Positions 5,022-49,811 of a stretch of 64,000 bases of DNA are shown one piece after another (position 1 is the stretch's first letter; the number at the start of each line of letters is the position of its first letter). The notes beneath the pieces were generated by a model. That model did not search any database. It was not told the origin of the DNA and was given only the letters and a program-made list of their open reading frames with translations. Source of the stretch: Leuctra nigra (taxonomy: Eukaryota > Arthropoda > Insecta > Plecoptera > Leuctridae); contig OW203768.1 of assembly GCA_934045905.1 (NCBI GenBank), positions 20,598,770 through 20,662,769 on the forward strand. Reading direction: 5' to 3'. The translations under genes were made by a program, and so were the position numbers.

Positions 5022-5751
5022 ATGTTGTACAAAAACAAAAACTTGTAAAAAAACTGCCAAGCACCTTCCCACTTAAAATAATTGAGATCTAAAAGAAGGG
5101 CCAAACAATAATATATTGTTTAAACATTTTCGCACTTAAAATTCGTGAAATCATTTCGCTCAGCTACTACCGCCAAGCACAACACTATAAACCTAACGTT
5201 GTGTCCAAATTTGAAGAATACAATCTAAGTGAACCATCATTGTAAACTTTAACAAATTATAAAAATTAAAAACGACTTAAAAAATAAATTTAAAATCGAA
5301 ATTAAAAAAATTAAAAATAAAGCTAGGCGCATTGTGTCAAGAAGAAGGCAACATAAGAAAGAAGATGACGATAAAGGAGCCGAAGAAAGACAGAAAGTAG
5401 GAAGAAGATAGAAGAAGTCTACATGGTCGATGCAAATTCAATGCGCCAAGCTTTATTTTTAATTTTTTTAATTTCGATTTTAAATTTATTTTTTAAGTCG
5501 TTTTTAATTTTTATAATTTGTTAAAGTTTACAATGATGGTTCACTTAGATTGTATTCTTCAAATTTGGACACAACGTTAGGTTTATAGTGTTGTGCTTGG
5601 CGGTAGTAGCTGAGCGAAATGATTTCACGAATTTTAAGTGCGAAAATGTTTAAACAATATATTATTGTTTGGCCCTTCTTTTAGATCTCAATTGTTTTAA
5701 GTGGGAAGGTGCTTGGCAGTTTTTTTACAAGTTTTTGTTTTTGTACAACAT
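5022..5751. mobile_element. Long fold-back element, 313-bp arms over 99% matched
   Basis: Arms 5022-5334 and 5439-5751 are equal in length and reverse complementary, with only a couple of differences seen. The outer ends read ATGTTGTACAAAAAC. The 104-bp loop is strikingly purine-rich (GAAGAAGG, AGAAAGAAGATGACG). No target duplication was found. Confidence 0.9.
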
Positions 5752-7027
5752 GTCATATGGGGTATAAGTTTATAGCAGCTTTCACTGATCATTAAGTGTT
5801 ACCTATCATTACAGTTAACGCCAACAACGTCAGTTCTTGTCTAAAGTTTTCTGTTTTTATTTCAATAGTTCCGAAGTTAGTATAACGAAAGGGTCCATTT
5901 CTTTTGGTTGAATTTGAGTTATATCAAATTATAATTTGTTAAAAGTTCACAGCTTTGAGTCATGTGAATAACGTAAATTGTAGGTGTATTGTTCCGGTGT
6001 AAACCGGAATTTGTGCGTTCATCTCGTAAAACGCGTATTTGTCGCCACTAGGTAAACTGAAAGGTACACGAAAGATGATTGCAAATGCGTTTCCTCATTT
6101 TTAAATTCTCCCATGTTCACTCTTTTATGTCAAAGTTTCGAAGTATAAACTCAATTGGTAAAGCGTGCAGGCTTACAGATGTTTACAACACATTTTAAAT
6201 AAAATCCGGATGGTTTTTGGAAGGCAATGTAACTTAAAAGGAACTTAGTTAAGATTAACTAGCTGAGCCACCTGGTGTTTATAGTGCTGGTGGGAAGGAG
6301 TATGACGGGTGATGAAATTTACGCTACCCGCCTTACTCGCCTATGTATATGTACACGGATAGCATGGGCCGGCCTATACCTGGCATCTCCACCTCTCTGC
6401 CTCTCCCTGTCAGGTCAACTTAATGTTTACATTTGTTTGTTCATGGCAAATACGATCGATGTCCATTTAGTATTGTTGTCTTCTTCTATAGGTACTTGTA
6501 AACAGTTATCGAGCTTGCATTTTAATTAGTCCACTGATCTTATTTAGTGATTATTATATTGTTTTGTGATGTTGCTGTGGAAGATAATATTTTCATATTT
6601 TCAAACCAGGAAACAACTTCGTGCTATTGCCTAGATACTTGAAGAATATTATTGTATTGCCGATGTAAACAAGCCAGACCACTTTCGTATATAACGTTCG
6701 CATCAAAACCAATGTTTATTTTATTAGTGTCAGATTAGGAGGAACATCAGTTTCAGTTTCATTTATTTCCATTAAACAATGTCACTTGATGAGACTTTGA
6801 CTCACAGTTTGGAAATAAATCATGACAATTTAAAAGCGTTTTATTATTCTAACTTTTTAACGTGAGCATTGTTGGATGATGAAATGAAATTTAAATCTCT
6901 CATACCCACAGATTTCCATTAATTATCATGGACCATTTAGTGTAGTTTCTTGTTTATTGTAACCGAGCTTCTAAGATTGACAGATTACAACATCTGAAAC
7001 AATGAAATAATTTTTACTAAGTTGTAA
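5752..7027. other. Intergenic DNA, no gene recognised
   Basis: Unique-looking AT-rich sequence. A diverged sub-repeat of the following array (TAGTGTAGTTTCTTGTTTAT) lies at about 6937-6957. Confidence 0.5.
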
Positions 7028-7677
7028 ACACCTAATAAACCTAGTAATGGAGCCATTTTGTGTGGTTTCTTGTTTCGTATCTGAACCATCAAGATCGACA
7101 AATTTGCATAATTAAAATAATTAAATTTATTTTAGAAACTTAAAGTTGTGATCACGTAATGGATGCACGTAATGGAGCCTTTTTGTGTGGTTTCTTGTTT
7201 CGTGTTGTTCTTGTTTCTTGTTGAGCCACCAATATTGACAAATTAACTCTATTTTAAATAATATATAAGTGTGACAAATGAAAAGTTGTAAACACGTAAT
7301 ACACTGAATATTAGTAATGGAGCCTTTACTGAATTTTACTATTTACTAAATTACCTGAATTTTACATAATTAAATAATTCGGATAAATAAAAAGCTGTGA
7401 CAACCTTATGCACCCAGTAATGGAGCCTTTTTTGTGTGGTTTCTAGTTTAGTAACTGAGCCACCAAGATTCTGTTGATTAGCATGACCACGAATTGTTTT
7501 ATTGCACAACTTTACGTACAACGTGTACATTGACAATCATTATTAGAGTCCAATGAGTATAATATTAAAAAGAGTTGCTATGTAATCGTTGAATGTATTC
7601 GGATTAACATTTTGAATATATACACAAGAAGGTTAAACATTTTTTAAGTAAAGAAAAAGATAAAAAAATAAAACATT

Positions 7678-7752
7678 TGTTACGGGGATCGAACCCGGCA
7701 ACGCCGTGATCGAAGTCACTTGCCTCATGTGACCGAGCCAATTCGCCACACT
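7678..7752 (-). repeat. tRNA-like SINE head in macrosatellite unit 1
   Basis: It carries box B GGTTCGATCCC and an A-box-like TGGCTCGGTCA, with a T-loop stem GCCGGG/CCCCGT-like fold. The acceptor arms do not pair fully, so it is tRNA-derived rather than a functional tRNA. Confidence 0.6.
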
Positions 7753-8620
7753 GAAATTAAACCTGTGTAGTATATCAAAGAAGAAAGGTAGAGCGTAAAA
7801 CGACGTGCGCAATTCCTGTTTCCCTGATATCTTCACTGTTCACGATGGCAACCGGCGTGCCGCGATGGAGATGTTTCTGTCTATTGATGATCTTCACAGC
7901 ATCCATTGGTAGTCTCATTTATTAAAAATGTACCAGAGCACCAGAGCATTAGTCTCTTAGAGTATTAGGAGCAAAGAGCACCTAATATACCTAGTAATGG
8001 AGCCTTTTTGTGTGGTTTATTGTTTCGTAACTGAGCCATCAAGATTGACAAATTAGCATAATTAAAATAATTAAATTAATTTTAGAACCTAATGCACGTA
8101 ATGGATGCACGTAATGGAGCCTTGTTGTGTGGTTTCTTGTTTCGTGTTGTTCTTGTTTCTTGTTGAGCCACCAATATTGACAAATTAACTCTATTTTAAA
8201 TAATTAAATAAGTGTGACAAATGAAAAGTTGTAAACACCTAATACTCTGAATATTAGTTATGGAGCCTTCACTGAATTTTACTATTTACTTAATTAACTG
8301 AATTTTACATAATTAAATAATTCGGATAAATTAAAAGCTGTGACAACCTCATGCACCCAGTAATGGAACCTTTTTTGTGTGGTTTCTAGTTTAGTAACTG
8401 AGCCACCAAGATTCTGTTGATTAGCATGACCACGAATTGTTTTATTGCACAACTTTACGTACAACGTGTACATTGACAATCATTACTAGAGTCCAATGAG
8501 TATAATATTAAAAAGAGTAGCTATGTAATCGTTAAATGTATTCGGATTAACATTTTGAATATATACACAAGAAGGTTAAACATTTTTTAAGTAAAGAAAA
8601 AGATAAAAAAATAAAACAAT

Positions 8621-8695
8621 TGTTACGGGGATCGAACCCGGCAACGCCGTGATCGAAGTCACTTGCCTCATGTGACCGAGCCAATTCGCCACACT
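8621..8695 (-). repeat. tRNA-like SINE head in macrosatellite unit 2
   Basis: Matches the unit 1 head base for base as read here, at a spacing of 943 bases. Confidence 0.6.
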
Positions 8696-9556
8696 GAAAT
8701 TAAACCTGTGTAGTATATCAAAGAAGAAAGGTAGAGCGTAAAACGACGTGCGCAATTCCTGTTTCCCTGATATCTTCACTGTTCACGATGGCAACCGGCG
8801 TGCCGCGATGGCGATGTTTCTGTCTATTGATGATCTTCACAGCATCCATTGGTAGTCTCATTTATTAAAAATGTACCAGAGCACCAGAGCATTAGTCTCT
8901 TAGAGTATTAGGAGCAAAGAGCACCTAATATACCTAGTAATGGAGCCTTTTTGTGTGGTTTATTGTTTCGTAACTGAGCCATCAAGATTGACAAATTAGC
9001 ATAATTAAAATAATTAAATTAATTTTAGAACCTAATGCACGTAATGGATGCACGTAATGGAGCCTTTTTGTGTGGTTTCTTGTTTCGTGTTGTTCTTGTT
9101 TCTTGTTGAGCCACCAATATTGACAAATTAACTCTATTTTAAATAATTAAATAAGTGTGACAAATGAAAAGTTGTAAACACCTAATACTCTGAATATTAG
9201 TTATGGAGCCTTCACTGAATTTTACTATTTACTTAATTAACTGAATTTTACATAATTAAATAATTCGGATAAATTAAAAGCTGTGACAACCTCATGCACC
9301 CAGTAATGGAACCTTTTTTGTGTGGTTTCTAGTTTAGTAACTGAGCCACCAAGATTCTGTTGATTAGCATGACCACGAATTGTTTTATTGCACAACTTTA
9401 CGTACAACGTGTACATTGACAATCATTACTAGAGTCCAATGATATTAAAAAGAGTAGCTATGTAATCGTTGAATGTATTCGGATTAACATTTTGAATATA
9501 TACACAAGAAGGTTAAACATTTTTTAAGTAAATAAAAAGATAAAAAATTAAACGTT

Positions 9557-9631
9557 TGTTACGGGGATCGAACCCGGCAACGCCGTGATCGAAGTCACTT
9601 GCCTCATGTGACCGAGCCAATTAGCCACACT
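9557..9631 (-). repeat. tRNA-like SINE head in macrosatellite unit 3
   Basis: Same as the other two, with a change in the A-box-side arm (TTAGCC for TTCGCC on the plus strand). Confidence 0.6.
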
Positions 9632-9867
9632 GAAATATAAACCTGTGTAGTATATCAAAGAAGAAAGGTGGAGCGTAAAACGACGTGCGCAATTCCTGAT
9701 TCCCTGATATCTTCAGTGTTCACGATGGCAACTGGCGTGCCGCGATTGCGATGTTTCGGTCTATTGATGATCTTCACAGCATCCCTGGACCTCTCATTTG
9801 AATATATATCCATGAAGGTATCATCGCTTATACAAATTAAAAAATAATATATGAAAAAAAAAGTTTT

Positions 9868-14340: not shown

Positions 14341-14346
14341 CCCGTC

Positions 14347-14535
14347 CATCATTGCAGAACAGTGAGTGACTAATGTCCATCATTGCTGAACAGTGAGTGA
14401 CTAAAGTCCATCATTGCTGAACAGTGAGTGACTAAAGTCCATCATTGCTGAACAGTGAGTGACTAAAGTCCATCATTGCTGAACAGTGAGTGACTAAAGT
14501 CCATCATTGCTGAACAGTGAGTGACTAATGTCCAT
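14347..14535. repeat. Tandem array, six 31-bp units
   Basis: The unit is TCCATCATTGCTGAACAGTG plus AGTGACTAAAG. The first unit has GCAG for GCTG. Confidence 0.92.
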
Positions 14536-14679
14536 CTCGCCTCTCTGTTACGACGTATACGGACTCGACGTGAAGTTTCCTGCCCGACAGCGGCCGAAGT
14601 CTTCGCATAACGGCGCGTGATGTCGGTTCCATGTCGTGGTCAGGTAATTCACTGACCACGCACGCGTGCCTGACCACTG

Positions 14680-15772
14680 ACTCCGATCATGGCACCGTGC
14701 AGTGGCCAGAACATGATGTCAGTGCCTGCCCACTCGCGGTTTAGCACCGTGCAGTGGCCAGTACATGATGTCAGTGCCTGCCCACTCGCGGTTTAGCACC
14801 GTGCAGTGGCCAGAACATGATGTCAGTGCCTGCCCACTCGCGGTTTAGCACCGTGCAGTGGCCAGAACATGATGTCAGTGCCTGCCCACTCGCGGTTTAG
14901 CACCGTGCAGTGGCCAGAACATGATGTCAGTGCCTGCCCACTCGCGGTTGCGTCGCTGATGACTCCGATCATGGCACCGTGCAGTGGCCAGAACATGATG
15001 TCAGTGCCTGCCCACTCGCGGTTTAGCACCGTGCAGTGGCCAGAACATGATGTCAGTGCCTGCCCACTTGCGGTTTAGCACCGTGCAGTGGCCAGAACAT
15101 GATGTCAGTGCCTGCCCACTCGCGGTTTAGCACCGTGCAGTGGCCAGAACATGATGTCAGTACCTGCCCACTCGCGGTTGCGTCGCTGATGACTCCGATC
15201 ATGGCACCGTGCAGTGGCCAGAACATGATGTCAGTGCCTGCCCACTCGCGGTTTAGCACCGTGCAGTGGCCAGAACATGATGTCAGTGCCTGCCCACTCG
15301 CGGTTTAGCACCGTGCAGTGGCCAGTACATGATGTCAGTGCCTGCCCACTCGCGGTTTAGCACCGTGCAGTGGCCAGAACATGATGTCAGTACCTGCCCA
15401 CTCGCGGTTTAGCACCGTGCAGTGGCCAGAACATGATGTCAGTGCTTGCCCACTCGCGGTTTAGCACCGTGCAGTGGCCAGTACATGATGTCAGTGCCTG
15501 CCCACTCGCGGTTTAGCACCGTGCAGTGGCCAGAACATGATGTCAGTGCTTGCCCACTCGCGGTTTAGCACCGTGCAGTGGCCAGTACATGATGTCAGTG
15601 CCTGCCCACTCGCGGTTGCGTCGCTGATGACTCCGATCATGGCACCGTGCAGTGGCCAGTACATGATGTCAGTGCCTGCCCACTCGCGGTTGCGTCGCTG
15701 ATGACTCCGATCATGGCACCGTGCAGTGGCCAGTACATGATGTCAGTGCCTGCCCACTCGCGGTTGCGTCTT
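14680..15772. repeat. Satellite array, 19 units of 52 or 74 bp
   Basis: The basic unit runs GCACCGTGCAGTGGCCAG to CCCACTCGCGGTTTA. Five units carry an extra 22-bp linker (GCGTCGCTGATGACTCCGAT), giving 74 bp, including the first and the last two. CAGTGGCCA recurs at about 14701, 14753, 14805, 14857, 14909, 14983 and onward. A/T variants (CCAGAACATG, CCAGTACATG) alternate. Open frames on both strands here are products of the periodicity, not genes. Confidence 0.95.
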
Positions 15773-21959: not shown

Positions 21960-23185
21960 TTACTTTGATCCTTGGCTTCAATGAGTAAAATCTTAAATCT
22001 TTCCGTTAAATCTTATTTAACGGAAAGAAAACAGGTGATAAAACTAGTGACTTCTTCAGGTGTTAATTTTTCTGATGAAACTACTGTTAATATAGGTGTT
22101 CCGCAAGGTTCGATAATTGCTCCTCTAATATTCATTTTATTTACTGGCGATTTGACACATTGTATTCAAAAAGGAAATTTAACATTATTTGCTGACGATA
22201 CTTCTCACTTCTTGAGCAATGATCTTGATGATAGGTGCATGGAAGTACAGCAATTGGCTAGTTGGGTTGTTAACAACGACTTGTGTTTGAATGAATCTAA
22301 GACTGTTATGCTTCAATTTTCTCAAAGTACTAATAACAGTAATTTGTCCAGTCCATTAATTTACTTAAATGGGAGAAGTATATTGGTACAAAATTCAACA
22401 AAGTATTTGGGCATTACATTAGATAGTAAATTAAATTGGAAAGAACACATTTTTAATGTAGGTAATAAAGTGTCTTCCGGTTGCTTTTTGATCAAAAGAA
22501 TAATGCAAATTTGTAATTTTGAGGCAGCTAAGTCCGTTTACTATTCCTATATTCATTCATTTATTTCTTATGGAATTGTGTTGTGGGGTCATTCCACACA
22601 CACAAAAAGACTTTTTATTTTACAGAAGAGAGCTGTTCGGTTTCTGGCCAGTGCTAGTTACGATCCGTGTACTGCTGGTGTTTACTTCAAAGATTCATGT
22701 AGACCACTTTTTATAAGTTTTAAAATTCTCACTCTTCCTTGCATTTATATTTATAATACTATTATGTTCGTGATAGAAAATAAGCATTTAACAATTGATA
22801 ACAAGGAGGTACATAATCACAATACCAGGTTAAATTATAATTTAAGAGTATGTTCAATGAACTCTAAATCTAAGTTTAATAATAAGTGTCCAGTCGCAGT
22901 TGGTGTCAGTCTTTTCAATAAATTGAATTCATCATTAAAATCTAAAATTGACTATGAGAGATTGTATATTTTTAAATCATCACTGAAAGAATTTTTAATT
23001 ATTAATTGTTTTTATTCAATTGACGAGTTTCTCAACGCAAAATGTTTATAGTTATTATGATTTCTTGTACAAGCCTGAATTTAATTTGTTTGCTTTACCT
23101 AATTGTTATGTAATTGACGTGTCCAATATCATTTGTATATGATCAAATAGGGATTAATAAAACTTGAACTTGAACTTGAACTTGA
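21960..23185 (+). mobile_element. 5'-truncated non-LTR retrotransposon (jockey/CR1-like LINE)
   Basis: It consists of a reverse-transcriptase C-terminal ORF, a short 3'UTR with an AATAAA-like signal (ATTAATAAAACTTG), and a terminal (CTTGAA)n microsatellite tail at 23157-23185. The 5' end is lost within the reverse-transcriptase palm domain, the usual outcome of incomplete target-primed reverse transcription. No target duplication could be fixed by eye. Confidence 0.85.
21972..23051 (+). CDS. Partial LINE reverse transcriptase
   Basis: About 359 codons are open. Visible motifs are SYLTERKQ, GVPQGS (~residues 42-47), the catalytic FADD box in LFADDT (~72-77), and the thumb and C-terminal region with LDSKLNWKEH, YGIVLWGHS, LQKRAVRFL and a final CFYSIDEFLN, typical of jockey/CR1-group ORF2 ends. 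The endonuclease domain and the first reverse-transcriptase motifs are missing, and an in-frame stop precedes the open stretch, so it is a dead-on-arrival copy even though its remaining frame is unbroken. The first natural ATG is at 21981. Confidence 0.85.
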   Translation: MASMSKILNLSVKSYLTERKQVIKLVTSSGVNFSDETTVNIGVPQGSIIAPLIFILFTGDLTHCIQKGNLTLFADDTSHFLSNDLDDRCMEVQQLASWVVNNDLCLNESKTVMLQFSQSTNNSNLSSPLIYLNGRSILVQNSTKYLGITLDSKLNWKEHIFNVGNKVSSGCFLIKRIMQICNFEAAKSVYYSYIHSFISYGIVLWGHSTHTKRLFILQKRAVRFLASASYDPCTAGVYFKDSCRPLFISFKILTLPCIYIYNTIMFVIENKHLTIDNKEVHNHNTRLNYNLRVCSMNSKSKFNNKCPVAVGVSLFNKLNSSLKSKIDYERLYIFKSSLKEFLIINCFYSIDEFLNAKCL

Positions 23186-36075: not shown

Positions 36076-36089
36076 AAATAAAAAAAGAT

Positions 36090-36163
36090 TGGCCCATGGG
36101 GGGATCGAACCCACGACCTTCGCGTTATTAGCACGACGCTCTAACCAGCTGAGCTAATGGGCC
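36090..36163 (-). tRNA. tRNA-Ile(AAT)-like gene
   Basis: The 74-nt cloverleaf folds with acceptor GGCCCAT/ATGGGCC plus A73, D arm GCTC/GAGC, anticodon stem TCGTG/CGCGA, loop CTAATAA (anticodon AAT), and T loop TTCGATC. Pol III boxes A (TAGCTCAGCTGG) and B (GGTTCGATCCC) are intact, and a T7 run follows directly as terminator. The T stem has one T-C mismatch (GTGGG against CCCCC), which the copy at 25.4 kb shares. It is either a slightly degenerate gene or a member of a tRNA-derived repeat. Confidence 0.65.
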
Positions 36164-36480
36164 AGTTGTTGATCACGGCTTGACTTACGCACCACGTTCA
36201 TAAATAAATAGATTATTTTCATTTACAGGAATACGCTGATTTTTAAATGAATGGTTTGACAAAGGCTAAAATGTAAATAAGTTTTGAAAAATGGATGTCG
36301 AACCATAAATTAAACAAAAACTTTTTTAATTTTTTATTTAATAGATTATTTAAATGTGACCTCATCCTCTCTACACAAGTCCAAAACTTTGTTTTAAAAC
36401 CTAAAAAATTTTTAAATTAGGTTATTGAATAGTATTTTTAAATAATCACAATCTAGCACAGGAACATCATTAGGTAATGA
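36164..36480. other. Gene-free spacer
   Basis: AT-rich; nothing recognised. Confidence 0.5.
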
Positions 36481-38754: not shown

Positions 38755-41700
38755 TTATCTATTGCTTCGTCGCGTGGTCCGCATGTCCTTCTCGATCTCA
38801 AACTGCCTCAGATCCGCTCGCTGCAAGAAGTCTTGTCGCTCCAGATACCCGTCCTTGCCTCGATTGTGCGTCTGCACCTCGTCCTCGATGCCTTCCACTC
38901 GCTTGAACCGATCCCAGTCCAGCTTGGACTTCTCCAGAGTCCCGATCTTCTCCTTCTTGCCGAGCTGCCCGAGCACTGCCGACAGCCCCTTGAGGCCGCC
39001 CGAGGCCCTTCCTCGGCCGGCCGGCGAGGGTCGGTCGACTTGCAGTCGCGCTTCGGCGGAGTCGGCGGCGACTTCCTTCGTCACTCGGACTTCCTCCCCC
39101 GCAAACTCAAATACTTTCGTTACGACTACTTTCTCAGCATGTGCTTTCACTTTGGGTAATTCTGGTTCTGTGATTATTTTCTCCTGTTTCTTCGGAATGT
39201 CGGATGATGTGGGCTTAGGTTTAGGACTGGATGTGTCACTCAAGAAATCTGAAATAAATTAAAATACATCGTTTTTATAAACACCTTATTAACACGCAAT
39301 CACTAAGGCATACATTTATAGAAAGTTACTATTGATTAAAGAATCATTTTTTCTTAATTTTAAATCCTTTTTTTTTATTTATGGACCTTTGGATGAACCA
39401 AGGTATGTGTAGTAGGTACCAAGATTGATTCAGAGTTTTCCTTTTCAATAGAGCAGGGCACTGGGTAGGTAACAGGATAATTTGATAATTTTTAAATTGA
39501 AAATTAGTTTTTTTATAACTCTGCTTGTGATTCCTATCGATTAAGTCAACAAAAAGGTGTTAAAGAGTAACACTTGTACCTTTTCTATGTAGGGTGATCA
39601 CTACATTTCTAAATATTTGTGTCTTTTCACATTTTCTTAAAATAAAAATAATCTCACTTGACCTGACAATGATTCATATTGCAGTCAAAACATCCCAAAA
39701 TTATATACGTATATTGAAATAAAATTCATAGTTTTTTTTTATGAAAATAATAATTATTGATTTTAATCACGCATACCCTTCACAGAGGTATAAATTGGAA
39801 ATAATCAACATGGATGAAGGAAATAATTGAGTAGACACGCTGTGATTGGTCATTATGTACTTTTTATTTATAATTACGTTTACATTTTGACAAACATTAG
39901 GATCTGATATTGTTTACTTAAAGGTAGACTTGGAGAATGTCAGAATAGATTTCTTTGTTTGCTTAGTGCAAGTAGACATTCTGAAATTTGGTCATAGATA
40001 GTTCTAGGTATAATTTTCTACAAGTGACAAAAAATGTTTATAATTACGAATCAATACGAATAAAATGACCTGATATCAGTACAAAACGAAACACATCTTT
40101 ACGCTAAGCTATAAATAACATATAATTTAACACGTTGACTTTCGTTTGACTTTGACTTACCAGGCTGAGACCAAGGGTTCCACCTGAGTTACCGAGTTTA
40201 CTTGGTAATTCCTTGGGCTTTTCGCCCGAAAGGTTTCTAGTGTTGAAAGCAAATTTAGTTTTACGGTCGACAACTAACCTGCCGCCGACTATTCTTTACA
40301 CCAATGACTACCTGGACCTAACCAAATGGTTGGATTAGATATTCATGAAAAATATTCAACATTTTTCCTATAGCAACACATTTTAAAAATCAATGTCATT
40401 CTTGTACGTAGTTGTTTGTCCCTACGACTTACAAATAAAAATATAATAGTTTAAGTTACCCAAATAAGTTCTGGGTGTCAGTTAGAAAATGCCCTGCAAT
40501 GAAATTGTGTATTTAATTTATGTGATACATCATACAGTTGACATAAGAAGCTTGAGATGCACACAAAAAGTTATCTCAGATAATGCAATGACTTCTAAGA
40601 AGCCTGGAGACAGCTGTTAATCTTCAAATCTCCCCTCATTCCAACATCAAATATAAAGTTGCAACACTGTACAATGAAGAGTTAAAAAAGACAGTGTTAA
40701 AAAAGGTAAATATAACATTTTACAGCCATCCCCAGGCATCTTACACACAATTAAAACAATGCAGGTCTACAAACTCAAGAAAAACCAATGGAAATACGTT
40801 CACATTTTTCACTCAAAGGGTTCAATTTTAGCCTTATTCGGATTGTCTGGATGGTATTTGAGCATAAGCCCCATGATCTTGTACTTGCAAACCGCAGCGG
40901 GCCACGGCTTCATCTGTCGAAGCTCCGCGGCGACAACTTTTCCAAAATGATCGTACAGGTCTGGTTTCTTGTCCACGGCCGCAACCAATCCCTGCATCAC
41001 CTCCAACGCTTTAAGTAGGACGCGGGAGTGAGATTCGCCCGATTCGGATTCATTTTCCTCGCTTGCGGCCAGGGAATTCCTCTGCCACTCGAGGATCCGA
41101 ACAACTTTGTCGTCTTCCAATGGAGGCAGGCCACTTGGTTCAGGCAGGATGGCTTTGGCACCTTAGAAAGAAAGAATTGTTATAAGCTGACTTATTTCAG
41201 TTAACCGTAGCATATTCGGCTAAATCTTTGAAGAAAGAAAGCAGGTTTATGGCTTTTTCCACTGGCCGCACTGGGGCTGCACTGAAATGACGTCACCATA
41301 CAAAACTCAATGCAAATTTCAAACAGAGTGTAGAACTAGTGCGGCCCAGTGCGGCCAACACCATTAGTTTCTCTCACTTTTATCTCCATTTTACTTGTCA
41401 TCTCACTATTTCAGGAATTGCCCTCAAGTGTGTGGCATTAAGACGGCTGGGTAGTGAGTTTGACCTTGAAGAGTTTTCTAATCGATTTTTATTAATATCT
41501 TTTATTTTACCAATACAATTTTTAATAAAATAAGGCTTTGTACGAGTCTTCAGAACAGTTAAATGAAAATAATTTCATAGCTTGGAATGGTTTTTTAGTT
41601 TTATTTTGTCAGACCTACAGACGTTTAGTACCTGAAAATTAGTAAAAATATGGCACTAAACGTCTGTAGGTCAAAATAAAACACCTATTCCAAACTATGA

Positions 41701-44829: not shown

Positions 44830-44838
44830 CGCTGCACA

Positions 44839-44883
44839 GGGAAAGACTATATTCACACAGCAGTATCCAAGGAGGCGTGGCTA
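44839..44883 (+). repeat. Left terminal inverted repeat of the MULE
   Basis: This is the 45-bp inward-reading terminus GGGAAAG...GGCGTGGCTA. It differs from the right end at one position (G here against C at the 25th base). The 9-bp target duplication CGCTGCACA abuts it at 44830-44838. Confidence 0.92.
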
Positions 44884-45109
44884 ACTAGAAATCAACCAAT
44901 CGAAGTTACCTTTGATCTGTGCGGGAAAGTTAAAAACATATTAATTTTTTTTATAAATTATGATTGGAAAACTAATTAAACTTTCTAAGACAATGTGTAC
45001 ACAACCATGACGTAAACCAGGGAATATTGAAAAAGTTCAATAATACGTAAATAACTTTTAATATTCAAGTTCAAATGGCACAAGGTCAATACAAATTGCC
45101 AATTAAATC

Positions 45110-45870
45110 TCCCAATTACAAAACTAGTACATAATAGCACCAATACAATTACTGTTTCTTTTATACACTTGAATAGCACAATACCATACATTTGTATCAA
45201 GAAGTGACGGTATAAATGTGTAGGAAGCAATGTACCGATACAACAATTAAATCACTAAATTATACAAAACTAGTAATAGCACCAATACAATTACTGTTTG
45301 TTTTATACACTTGAATAGCACAATACCATACATTTGTATCAAGAAGTGACGGTATAAATGTGTAGGAAGCAATGTACCGATACAACAATTAAATCACTAA
45401 ATTATACAAAACTAGTAATAGCACCAATTACTGTTTGTTTTATACACTTGAATAGCACAATACCATACATTTGTATCAAGAAGTGACGGTATAATTGTGT
45501 AGGAAGCAATGTACCGATACAACAATTAAATCACTAAATTATACAAAACTAGTAATAGCACCAATACAATTACTGTTTGTTTTATACACTTGAATAGCAC
45601 AATACCATACATTTGTATCAAGAAGTGACGGTATAAATGTGTAGGAAGCAATGTACCGATACAATAATAATCGACATACAAATAAATCACTAAATTATAC
45701 AAAACTAGTTATAACACCAATACGATTCCTGTTTGTTTTATACACTTAAATAGCACAATACCATACATTTGTATCAAGAAGTGACGGTATAAATGTGTAG
45801 GAAGCAATGTACCGATACAACAATTAAATCACTAAATTATACAAAACTAGTAATAGCACCAATACAATTA
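45110..45870. repeat. Tandem array of ~140-bp units inside the MULE
   Basis: Five near-identical units plus a partial sixth begin around 45117, 45262, 45403, 45540, 45696 and 45838, with spacing of 137-156 bp. Each carries TACAAAACTAGT, TTTTATACACTT and GTGACGGTATAAATGTGTAG. The array sits between the transposase stop and the left terminal repeat; subterminal repeats of this kind can bind transposase in other families, but no such role is shown here. Confidence 0.9.
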
Positions 45871-46012
45871 CCAATACCATAGACATTGTATAGCATACAA
45901 TGCCTATGCCAATACCAATACCAATACTGTTACCTTGGAGCATGGAACTGAAGAGTCAAAGTTGCCGTGATCAATCATTTTCGAGATTACAAGAATACGT
46001 AGAACATTAAAC

Positions 46013-49000
46013 TTATATTGGCATCTCCACATTTCCACTTGCTACGCGCCATTTGTCTGCTACTGCACCAAAACGACCGACATGTTTTTGGCTATTATTC
46101 CCCTTTTTCTTGCGAGACGGAAGATTGAGGTATTTTTGATGTACCGGTTTTAAAGGTATATGTAGTCTTGACTGGATGTTTTTTTTGTGGATTAATGTGA
46201 TATTTTCTTGAAGAGAAGGATCTACAACCAACCCTTCATCAGTGCAAGAGAGAGCAGACCTTACTTTTGGCTCCCAGTCATTCAAGACTTGCTCAAATTG
46301 GATTGCTATGGGATGTTGGGAATCTAATAAGTAAGTGTGATCCATTAATATTTTCAGCTTCTCCCTGAGTTGAGGCATTGAAACACCTTGCGATCGGGTG
46401 AGCGTTGGAAGCTCACTCGACACTAACTGTTCTTCGTCTAATGTCTGAGACGATCGGGGGTTAATTTCACATTGCTCCATTACAACATCAGGTTGCACAT
46501 CCACCTCTTCTTGGGTAACTTCCATGTTTGCTGCGTAAGCCATGTCTACTGTAATGTATGGATTTTTCGTGTAGTCATCTGGCAGCATCTCGAAGTGCCA
46601 ATCTGTAAATATAAATATGGCACACATGTGTTTGCACGGAAGACGCCAGGTGTAAAAGTCATGACAAGAGCAAGATACATTTTTCATGTCGACATGGTAA
46701 AGTTCTTCTGAATTTGCCTCGCTCTCAACGCAAAACAGCCCCTCCGTCATGTCCTGTATCCGTTCCAATCTGTACTCTAAATCAGCCTTGGCGTGTCTGT
46801 TCATAATATGTTTGATAAAGTGAAGTGGCCTGTTATGTAGGAAGGAAGGTACGTTTTTACTGAAAGGTTTGTAAGAAGAGGTCATTTTGGCGTTGTTCTT
46901 GACATATTTTGCAATTGAATCGGGTAGATACTCTTTAATGACGAGCCTGAGCATTCCAGTTATTGTTTTATCGTATGAATGCTTTAAGTATGAATGCTTG
47001 AAGACCTTGTTCTGACTTTCTATTCCATTATTGGTATTAACTTTTGACAGAAAATCATTTGTGTGGAATGCAGCCACCCACCTGTGGGCCTGGGGCAACC
47101 ATTGATGATTGAAATACTTTTGGGCAAGAGGGCATTCAGAATATAATTCGCTTGTGTTCAAGATGTCAATGTTTGCTTGAAACTCCTCTTCAGTCTTAGA
47201 CTTGGCGATAGCTCTCCACAGAGATTTAATTGGGTCTGCGGCACCTTTCGGCACATTACCACTTTTATGCAACCAACGCTGCCATGACTGTTCACGGTGA
47301 AATGCACAAAGGTAAACCGTCGACTCAGGGAAAGTTGCCTCGAGAGCTTTTATCTCAGCCTCTGAGAAATCCGTCATGAAGTATTTTGGTTTCCATTCTT
47401 CATTCCAGGACGCAAATATGGACAGGGCCTCACTGATCAAAACAGAGGATTCACTATGCACAACAAATGTACCAACTACCGAGTACCCAGAGTTAGTTTT
47501 CACAGCTAAAAAGAAGAGTGGTAAACTATATTTAGTTGTTTTATATGTAGCGTCTAATAAAGAAATATTATTGCCGTAACGAAGTAGCAAGTCTCGTTGC
47601 CATTTAGTTTGGTGGCAGAACAACAGAGTGGAAGAGCCAGCATCATCATCTTTGTTTTCAACGCTATCGTCGGGACACTGATACGGTCGGAAGAAGAATG
47701 TGTCGTCTGGACTCTCCTTTTTCCACTCTTTAATGTTCTCCTCCAGAGCTTCCTGATCAAATTTGGTTTTGTTTGTTTGGAAAAGTGCTAAATATACATG
47801 ATTGCGAATGTCTTTATCAGATGGATAAAAACCTTTATTAAGTTTGTCGGGAGGTTGCAGCCCTTCGAACATCTTTTCCACCAACATTCCCAAGTGAAAT
47901 TTTATATTTTTAACTGAACAAACATTCTTTTTCACCAAATTGCAAATCTCTTCTTTTATAGCGGGGTGCAGAGACTGTTTGAGGTTGGTTGACTCTATGC
48001 GATGAGTGTGTACGTCTTCATGTGACAAGTACACAATGTACCGGAGATAGCTGACTGGGGGCGGAGAGTCGAGAGCAATGTCGGTTTTCAACAGCTTCGT
48101 TATCTAAAAAGTAAAATTAATCAAATTAATTAGTAGGTAGTATAAGAATTTCATGTACTACCTATCTACCTATTAGTGACCAGTTTGTAATACGTTGTAC
48201 CTGTTCATATCTACAAACACACATATTTTGCATACGTCACTTTCTGTGTTGCTTTTATTTTAATTGCGTTTTTGTCTGTACTGCCCAGGTCACACCGTTC
48301 AACCAATTGATCTAAAATTTTGCACCCACACTATTGTCGTAGAGCCGTGACGAGTAGGTTTTGATCAAAATCCTCTAAATGGTTGAAAAGTGAAAAACTC
48401 GTTTTGAAATATTAGATTCTTCAATGCATTTTATTGGTGTATTTATTGGTTTAGATTTTTATTTGTTTCATGGCTCCTAACACTTTCTCATACAAATCGA
48501 AGACTGCGTTAGAATGCGTTACACAGAGGGGTTTCCTAGTAGGTACCTACATGTAGGTATATCTAGGTACAATTAAAAGTAAATCAGAATATTAGAATAG
48601 GCCTGACAATAGTAGGTACACCCACTTCCAATAGTTCCTATACCGGTTTCCCATATACCAACATAGGGATTTGGCCGGCTTCTTTTGACGCTGACCCTAC
48701 CTACTTAAAACTATGGAAAGCAGTTTGCCTATACCCTCACGATTTTAGTCCAGATTTGTTATTATTCCTTTATTTCAACTTTGTCAAGCTTGGTAGTACA
48801 CTGGCTGCTCAATTAATTACCTTGGAGCATCCATGTCTTGAATAAGAGATACACTGATATTTTGATTCCTCGAAAACTCGTATACATTGGACCGACATGA
48901 AGGCTGGGCATCCCATCTTCTTCGTAGGTTGAAGTAAGAGGCGCTTCTTCTGTCCGGATGGATGATCAGCCTATTCAAAATATTAAAATTATTGTTATTA

Positions 49001-49570
49001 CATGGCATGTAATAGAATAATAGTCAAATAACTATATACTGTCTGTACTCGACCTACTCGTTGGCAGTATACCTATAGAAAATTCAATTTTCCAAAGCAT
49101 GAGAATGCGATAATCCAGCAATAGACTTACTAGAACAGTAGCTGAGGATGACGTTTGTTGCTGCCCAGTTTTTGATTTATAGTATTTTTCGCCTTGAGCG
49201 CAGTCATACCGACTAGACTTTTCTACTCGAAATGGACAGCCGAAGAAGGGAATAGAGATTTCTCGCTCCGAGGAACCTCTGCCGTTTCTCGTAAAGCAAA
49301 TTTGCCCTGTAAATTATATAAAATTCATGATAGAATAAGATTTTAGTTAGTAACATATATTATGAACAAATTTTCTGGGTGCTTTCAGGGAACCACACCT
49401 TGATCATTGTATATTTTACTATTCCTTGTTGAAAAAGAATATCCAGCTGCATTGATAGCAGTAAGAAAAGATGCGAAGCCCTCTTGGTGATCTATGTGGC
49501 CTGAATATGAAGACCCTTCCTTCCTGAAGTTTTGTAATCGATCTGCTAATACTTTGGCAAAATACGACAT
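46013..49570 (-). CDS. MULE transposase with SWIM zinc finger, four coding exons
   Basis: Exons 49570-49399, 49306-49131, 48970-48821 and 48103-46013 join in phases 1, 0 and 0 at consensus sites (CAAG|GTGTGG, CTA|GTAAGT, CAAG|GTAATT), giving 862 residues. The start MSYFAKVLADRL follows a 5'UTR acceptor; a 5'UTR exon ends at 49680 (donor ACTG|GTAAGT). Residues ~58-166 form a cysteine-containing N-terminal module with CPFRVEKSSRYDC and the family hallmark TKKMGCPA (residues 132-139). The MULE DDE domain follows: D350 (LLDATYKTTKYSLPLFFLAV), D411 (YFMTDFSEAEIKALE), the CAFHREQ motif (C432, H435) and E528 (NNGIESQN). A SWIM finger has C644, C646, C656 and H658 (CSCHDFYTWRLPCKH). These residues are those needed for cut-and-paste transposition in the superfamily, so activity is plausible; related insect proteins are often labelled calcium-responsive transcription factor-like. 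A domesticated role is less likely because terminal repeats and target duplication are intact. Confidence 0.9.
48240..48539 (+). mobile_element. Helitron-like end in transposase intron 3
   Basis: The family body motif CAACCAATTGATCTAAAATT is followed by GCGTTACACAGAGGGGTTTCCTAG and T. It is shorter than the other copies and lies inside the MULE, so it arrived after or with the MULE lineage. Confidence 0.4.
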
Positions 49571-49679
49571 GACTAGAGACCTGCAAAATAAATAAATGTA
49601 CCTACTGTAAGCTACTCTACAGTACAGCAACGATAATAATAAAACATAATATGATGACAGTTTAATTAAAATTACTTAC

Positions 49680-49757
49680 CAGTAATCGTAGGTGATAGGT
49701 GTTTGGAAATCACCATGCTCCGGAAGGGAACCTGACCTGACCAAACTAAACCTGACG
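49680..49757 (-). promoter_or_regulatory. Transposase 5'UTR exon with a 14-codon upstream ORF
   Basis: An ATG at 49716-49714 reads through the 49680|49590-region splice junction and stops (GGTCTCTAG) just before the transposase ATG. The donor ACTG|GTAAGT and acceptor TATTTTGCAG|GTCTCT are both strong. Such an upstream ORF may dampen transposase translation; this is inference only. Confidence 0.45.
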
Positions 49758-49802
49758 TAGCCACGCCTCCTTGGATAGTGCTGTGTGAATATAGTCTTTC
49801 CC
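49758..49802 (-). repeat. Right terminal inverted repeat of the MULE, promoter side
   Basis: This is the reverse complement of the left end, with one mismatch in 45. The transposase 5'UTR exon (ending 49680) begins within or just inside it, so this end probably carries the transposase promoter. The second CGCTGCACA copy follows at 49803-49811. Confidence 0.92.
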
Positions 49803-49811
49803 CGCTGCACA

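Follow-up and report, generated by a model that had tools for sequence, protein, structure and literature searches.

A Mutator-like transposon with a CARF-type domain, probably recently inserted between CFDP1 and TMEM170 in the stonefly Leuctra nigra

Introduction

A segment of 4,964 bp bounded by inverted ends lies between the divergent genes CFDP1 and TMEM170 of Leuctra nigra (Plecoptera, Leuctridae), which raises the question of whether it is a transposon able to move, a recent but dead copy of one, or a gene adopted by the host. The segment (44839-49802) was analysed within a window of 64,000 nucleotides (assembly GCA_934045905.1, contig OW203768.1, positions 20,598,770 to 20,662,769 of the forward strand), the whole stretch to which window coordinates refer. 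It is best explained, with a probability of about 0.9, as an autonomous cut-and-paste Mutator-like element (MULE) recently inserted in the promoter space of the head-to-head genes CFDP1 and TMEM170, with a transposase domain homologous to that of the transcription factor CARF (ALS2CR8).

Structure of the element and its transposase

Membership in the MULEs was judged by a target duplication of 8-11 bp, inverted ends, a MULE domain with DDE residues and a zinc finger such as SWIM. The inverted repeats at this locus measure 45 nt (44839-44883 and 49758-49802; 44 of 45 positions complementary) and a perfect 9-bp copy of CGCTGCACA stands on each side of them, an exact match whose chance at one fixed place is 4^-9. 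A second perfect 9-bp duplication surrounds another copy of the element (see below), the DDE residues are in place and the catalytic fold is of the Mutator type. The features of the element are as follows (window coordinates, strand, description, source).

44830-44838, unstranded: left 9-bp target site duplication CGCTGCACA (direct sequence reading)
44839-44883, plus: 45-nt inverted end, 3' of the transposase, 98% complementary to the opposite end
45132-45871, unstranded: minisatellite of 5.1 copies of a 142-bp unit, located between the transposase stop and the 3' inverted end (tandem repeat detection)
46013-48103, minus: transposase exon 4, 696 codons and stop (open frame and splice model)
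46610-46699, minus: SWIM-type finger, residues 635-664, below the Pfam cut-off (Pfam range)
47297-47560, minus: MULE catalytic domain match, residues 348-435, with D350 and D411 inside and E528 further on (Pfam)
47792-49268, minus: CARF/ALS2CR8-type domain PF15299, residues 71-270, exons 2 to 4, introns included (Pfam)
48821-48970, minus: transposase exon 3 (splice model)
49131-49306, minus: transposase exon 2 (splice model)
49399-49570, minus: transposase exon 1 (splice model)
49758-49802, minus: inverted end, 5' of the transposase (inverted-repeat match)
49803-49811, unstranded: right 9-bp target site duplication CGCTGCACA (direct sequence reading)

The four minus-strand exons, joined at GT/AG sites, give a transposase of 862 residues without internal stop. 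Its MULE domain (PF10551) scores above the Pfam cut-off (1.6e-13), D350, D411 and E528 are present with CAFH at 432, and the full D/D/E triad is kept in 41 of 48 aligned relatives. An earlier reading made from the letters of this stretch without database searches (the sequence-only reading) had described a complete MULE with 45-bp inverted ends differing at one position, a perfect 9-bp duplication, a four-exon 862-residue transposase and these same catalytic residues, and the intact ends, duplication, frame and triad agree with it on every one of these points. As to its SWIM finger, the motif CSCHDFYTWRLPCKH (CxCx9CxH) begins at residue 644, where it had been placed, but the Pfam SWIM score (14.8 bits) falls under the 19.6-bit cut-off. 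The CARF-type domain, the meaning of the minisatellite, the sibling families and the catalytically altered relative described below are additions to that reading.

The predicted spliced protein has a CARF/ALS2CR8-type domain at its N-terminus, followed by an RNase H (DDE) core of the Mutator type and then by a finger of the SWIM type. The CARF-type domain may recognise the inverted ends and the DDE core would cut and join, the staggered joining over 9 bp yielding the target duplication.

Copies in the genome and recent movement

A genome search for the element end, proposed in the sequence-only reading, was run over 536,196,549 bases in 144 contigs with a query of 131 bases at the left end of the element. 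Six matches were obtained, which correspond to the two ends of three copies: that of the window and two others, C4 and C9. A PF15299 search of the genome gave the same three places for this family, and both counts are lower bounds. The C4 copy (4,964 bp) differs from the window copy at 5 positions without gaps, two of them replacements (K208N and V740I), and keeps the 862-residue frame intact; the sequence of one of its two flanks is unreadable. The C9 copy (2,966 bp) has lost its middle, with a CATAC filler at the break, and is flanked by its own perfect 9-bp duplication CGTTTATCA. Its four differences from the window copy are all common to C4, so that C4 and C9 are the same wherever both exist. 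Likeness among the three copies is therefore 99.8-100%, and the 862-residue frame is intact in two.

The mutation rate of insects is near 3e-9 per site per generation. At this rate 5 differences in 4,964 positions would place the source from which the window and C4 copies both derive, very roughly, within the last 200,000 generations, a figure that is an estimate and no measured date. The single mismatch between the ends was considered as an age clock and rejected: the ends of the window copy compared with those of C4 and C9 are likewise 97.8% alike (44/45), and since no difference between copies falls in an end the mismatch predates the copies. Recent movement of the element is well supported by these comparisons, and the youth that had been supposed for the insertion gains support from the near-identical copies at other loci and the second perfect duplication at C9.

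The same copies bear on the idea of a domesticated host gene at this locus, its transposon ends kept by chance. Its location at a promoter and the strong constraint on the transposase (omega ~0.03 on its branch) would suit such a gene, but constraint is equally expected of a mobile family, the ends and duplication are perfect, the triad is intact and near-identical copies sit elsewhere in surroundings of their own. Because of these copies, the two intact frames and the second perfect duplication, the pattern of a domesticated gene is not matched, and domestication of this locus is very improbable.

The CARF/ALS2CR8-type domain

Residues 71-270 of the transposase match PF15299 (ALS2CR8, that is, CARF) at 2.5e-31 over profile positions 15-229 of 235, with 109.8 bits against a curated cut-off of 28.9; the N-terminal part alone reaches 65.4 bits. 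The domain is assigned to 45 of the 52 proteins retrieved with the whole transposase, 44 of which also have a MULE or ZSWIM1-3 RNase H domain (precomputed assignments), and N-terminal segments alone match PF15299 in the nine of nine proteins tested, including that of the window. The hosts of these relatives include Bacillus rossius, Planococcus citri, Priapulus, Magallana, Diadema, Lytechinus, Exaiptasia and Hydra. Family membership by the Pfam profile thus shows the N-terminal domain of the predicted transposase to be homologous to the animal CARF domain.

CARF is a host transcription factor and not a transposase, whereas the window element is a multi-copy transposon with a complete catalytic triad and not a single host gene. 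According to the accessible part of PMC2877716, vertebrates, Branchiostoma and Nematostella each have a single CaRF gene, and none was found in fly or worm, while the domain joined to the MULE core is present in stick insect, mealybug, priapulid, oyster, sea urchin, sea anemone and Hydra. This distribution makes passage of the domain from transposon to host the most likely direction. The reverse, in which the DNA-binding part of a host CARF gene was taken up by a MULE long ago, would fit the tendency of MULEs to acquire host gene fragments described in the accessible part of PMC6446971, but it accords poorly with both distributions and is considered unlikely.

CARF itself was sought by two further homology searches from the domain, which returned solely transposase-like proteins; the protein P0053 was considered as a CARF orthologue and rejected as a transposase-like protein without catalytic core. 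Neither Pfam nor the sequences of PDB gave a match of the N-terminal domain to WRKY-GCM1-type zinc fingers (FAR1, FLYWCH), and a fold search of this domain with a weak model returned nothing useful. A resemblance of the inverted ends to the CaRF binding site was set aside. The site is RRARYGAGGC, with A3, GAG and GC as the key bases of chCaRE (PMC2877716, accessible part). The window end CCAAGGAGGC has A3, GAG and GC, yet only one of four families shows it, a CaRE-like match arises in 2.2% of 20,000 trials with shuffled ends, and once the other families are counted the resemblance is not significant. A link of CARF/ALS2CR8 to MULEs or transposases was not found in the open-licence literature, where for the most part the best-ranked 10 to 20 of hundreds to thousands of papers were covered; of two other papers returned, one contains as its sole passage a table row on LINE1 silencing and one concerns serum glycoproteins. 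ALS2CR8 is absent from the main texts of PMC6446971, PMC10027918, PMC5225508 and PMC13359780.

Sibling families

The genome holds 69 exon-level places that match PF15299 (E up to 0.001), among them at least three further multi-copy families with similar ends, F552, F859 and F761. Their loci, all with PF15299 transposases, are listed here.

L012-L021, L024, L025
L031-L036
L037, L038, L027

F552 counts 12 copies, and the pairs shown, from queries with 4 of the 12, are 99.6-100% identical over 2.2 or 3.3 kb; this likeness suggests a recent burst. The six copies of F859 resemble L032 at 95-99%. F761 gave seven places of equal score, two of which, when compared, were 99.96% identical over 2,669 bp, with a related copy (L027) 95% alike. 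The sibling ends GGGGAGGTCTATCTTCACA, GGGAGACCTAAAGTTGACACA and GGGAGACCTAATATTCACC have in common with the window end GGGAAAGACTATATTCACACA a GGG(A/G) start and a CTA...TT(C/G)AC core. Perfect 9-bp duplications were read at six of the seven insertions with both flanks readable, the window family counted. The tandem arrays of F761 and F859 lie between the last transposase match and the 3' end, like that of the window element, whereas the F552 array (5173-5408 of the stretch read) precedes the last matched coding piece (5940-6044). In a tree of 22 proteins the window element groups with L023, F552 and L022 (99/99), and F761 and F859 group with Bacillus rossius (96/94).

Several points weigh against the proposed reading. 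The search from the left end turned up no more than three copies, as a lower bound; the F859 copy on C8, one of the two of its family read at both ends, has no duplication; and the direction from transposon to CARF is drawn from distribution only. In addition, the window copy has K at residue 208, where L022, L023 and F552 carry N and F761 and F859 carry T. K is therefore probably the newer state, and this private change could impair the enzyme of the window copy itself. The element might then be complete but immobile, a recent dead copy whose source is the C4 copy or none. The few copies found, the identity of C4 and C9 where shared and the 5 sites at which the window copy differs, K208 included, would fit such a history, but against it stand an intact frame, intact catalytic residues and splice sites and two intact ends, and a dead copy is regarded as a possible, clearly less probable account than an autonomous element.

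A catalytically altered relative on contig C1

L022 (contig C1, 48297874-48299727) is a 618-residue open frame that shares 45% identity with the window transposase in an alignment of 393 residues; it has a PF15299 match of 7e-12 and another exon-level match upstream. The aspartate equivalent to D350 is kept, D411 is changed to S, E528 to K and CAFH to SLFH, and there is no SWIM match at E up to 1. In the 6.9 kb around it only two local hairpins and short 16-base pairs were detected, none of them like a transposon end, and its DNA matches the genome nowhere but at its own locus. With a length of 1.56, compared with 0.41 for the window element, its branch is long, and the tree placement of so long a row is unsure.

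Over 97 codons where the window element and L023 agree, the single-base changes of L022 comprise 10 replacing and 22 silent ones, with no stop, against a neutral expectation of 3.77 to 1, an apparent omega of 0.12. Another 35 codons carry two or three differing bases, with replacement in 34, and the value is too low because these multi-base codons are left out; the true omega lies above it, though probably under 1. Without constraint about 7 stops would be expected (at least ~100 changes, stop share 7%) and none is seen. The same substitution count gave omega ~0.03 for the window element and for L023, which has three stops within the compared stretch, and 0.06 for F552. L022 is put forward as a candidate domesticated transposase gene.

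Comparison with known systems

The Bacillus rossius relatives, known here from predicted proteins alone, include LOC134537844 (P0001), with 44% identity over 88% of the query and PF15299 and MULE/ZSWIM1-3 RNase H domains in common with the window protein. The best fold match of the catalytic region of P0001 is the ISCth4 transposase (PDB 6xgx, 6xg8), a bacterial enzyme with 13-18% identity in the listed alignments; the match starts at residue 274 of the model and leaves the CARF-type domain outside. Rehavkus, compared by its description in the accessible part of PMC6446971 and not by sequence, resembles the window element in its 9-bp duplication, inverted ends and minisatellite before the 3' end, but has a PHD finger, a family that has no match in the 862-residue protein at E up to 0.1. 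A PHD finger is present in some relatives of the window transposase (P0018, P0022, P0038 and P0042). In P0018, P0022 and P0042 a ULP1-type protease (PF02902) and the PHD finger (PF00628) stand behind the CARF-type and MULE domains. Muta1 of Aedes aegypti is likewise an insect MULE, whose copies are nearly identical and whose target duplications measure 8 or 9 bp; it differs in its 145-bp ends with short subterminal repeats, against 45 bp here, and moves in yeast (PMC5225508, accessible part).

Insertion site and other features of the window

Between the element and the CFDP1 ATG (44485) there are 354 bp, and between it and the TMEM170 ATG (50275) there are 473 bp; the two genes are divergent. 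The first distance agrees with the roughly 350 bases from the CFDP1 start codon given in the sequence-only reading. The names proposed there (CFDP1 and TMEM170A) are backed by Pfam BCNT at 38755-39258 (1.9e-30) and by Tmemb_170 in two exon pieces (2e-14 and 9.3e-24).

Elsewhere in the window the following were observed.

7029-9784: three tandem copies of a ~943-bp unit, 89-100% alike where compared
14344-15770: dense minisatellites with 31-bp and 52/74-bp units
21969-23051: reverse transcriptase fragment of 360 residues (PF00078, 3.6e-11), non-LTR-like, the element type being a guess
36089-36164, minus: one tRNA-Ile gene, anticodon aat (ARAGORN)

Concluding remarks

As a transposon, the element is a normal, well-preserved animal MULE, and its interest lies in the link to CARF and in the catalytically changed sibling. 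The insertion occupies the promoter space common to two conserved genes, so that its effect could be compared between carriers and non-carriers. CARF, a vertebrate neuronal transcription factor described as unique and without relatives, shares its DNA-binding family with recently mobile transposases, and its origin is therefore open to testing by tree and binding assay, for which the candidate tamed copy in the same genome would provide a natural comparison.

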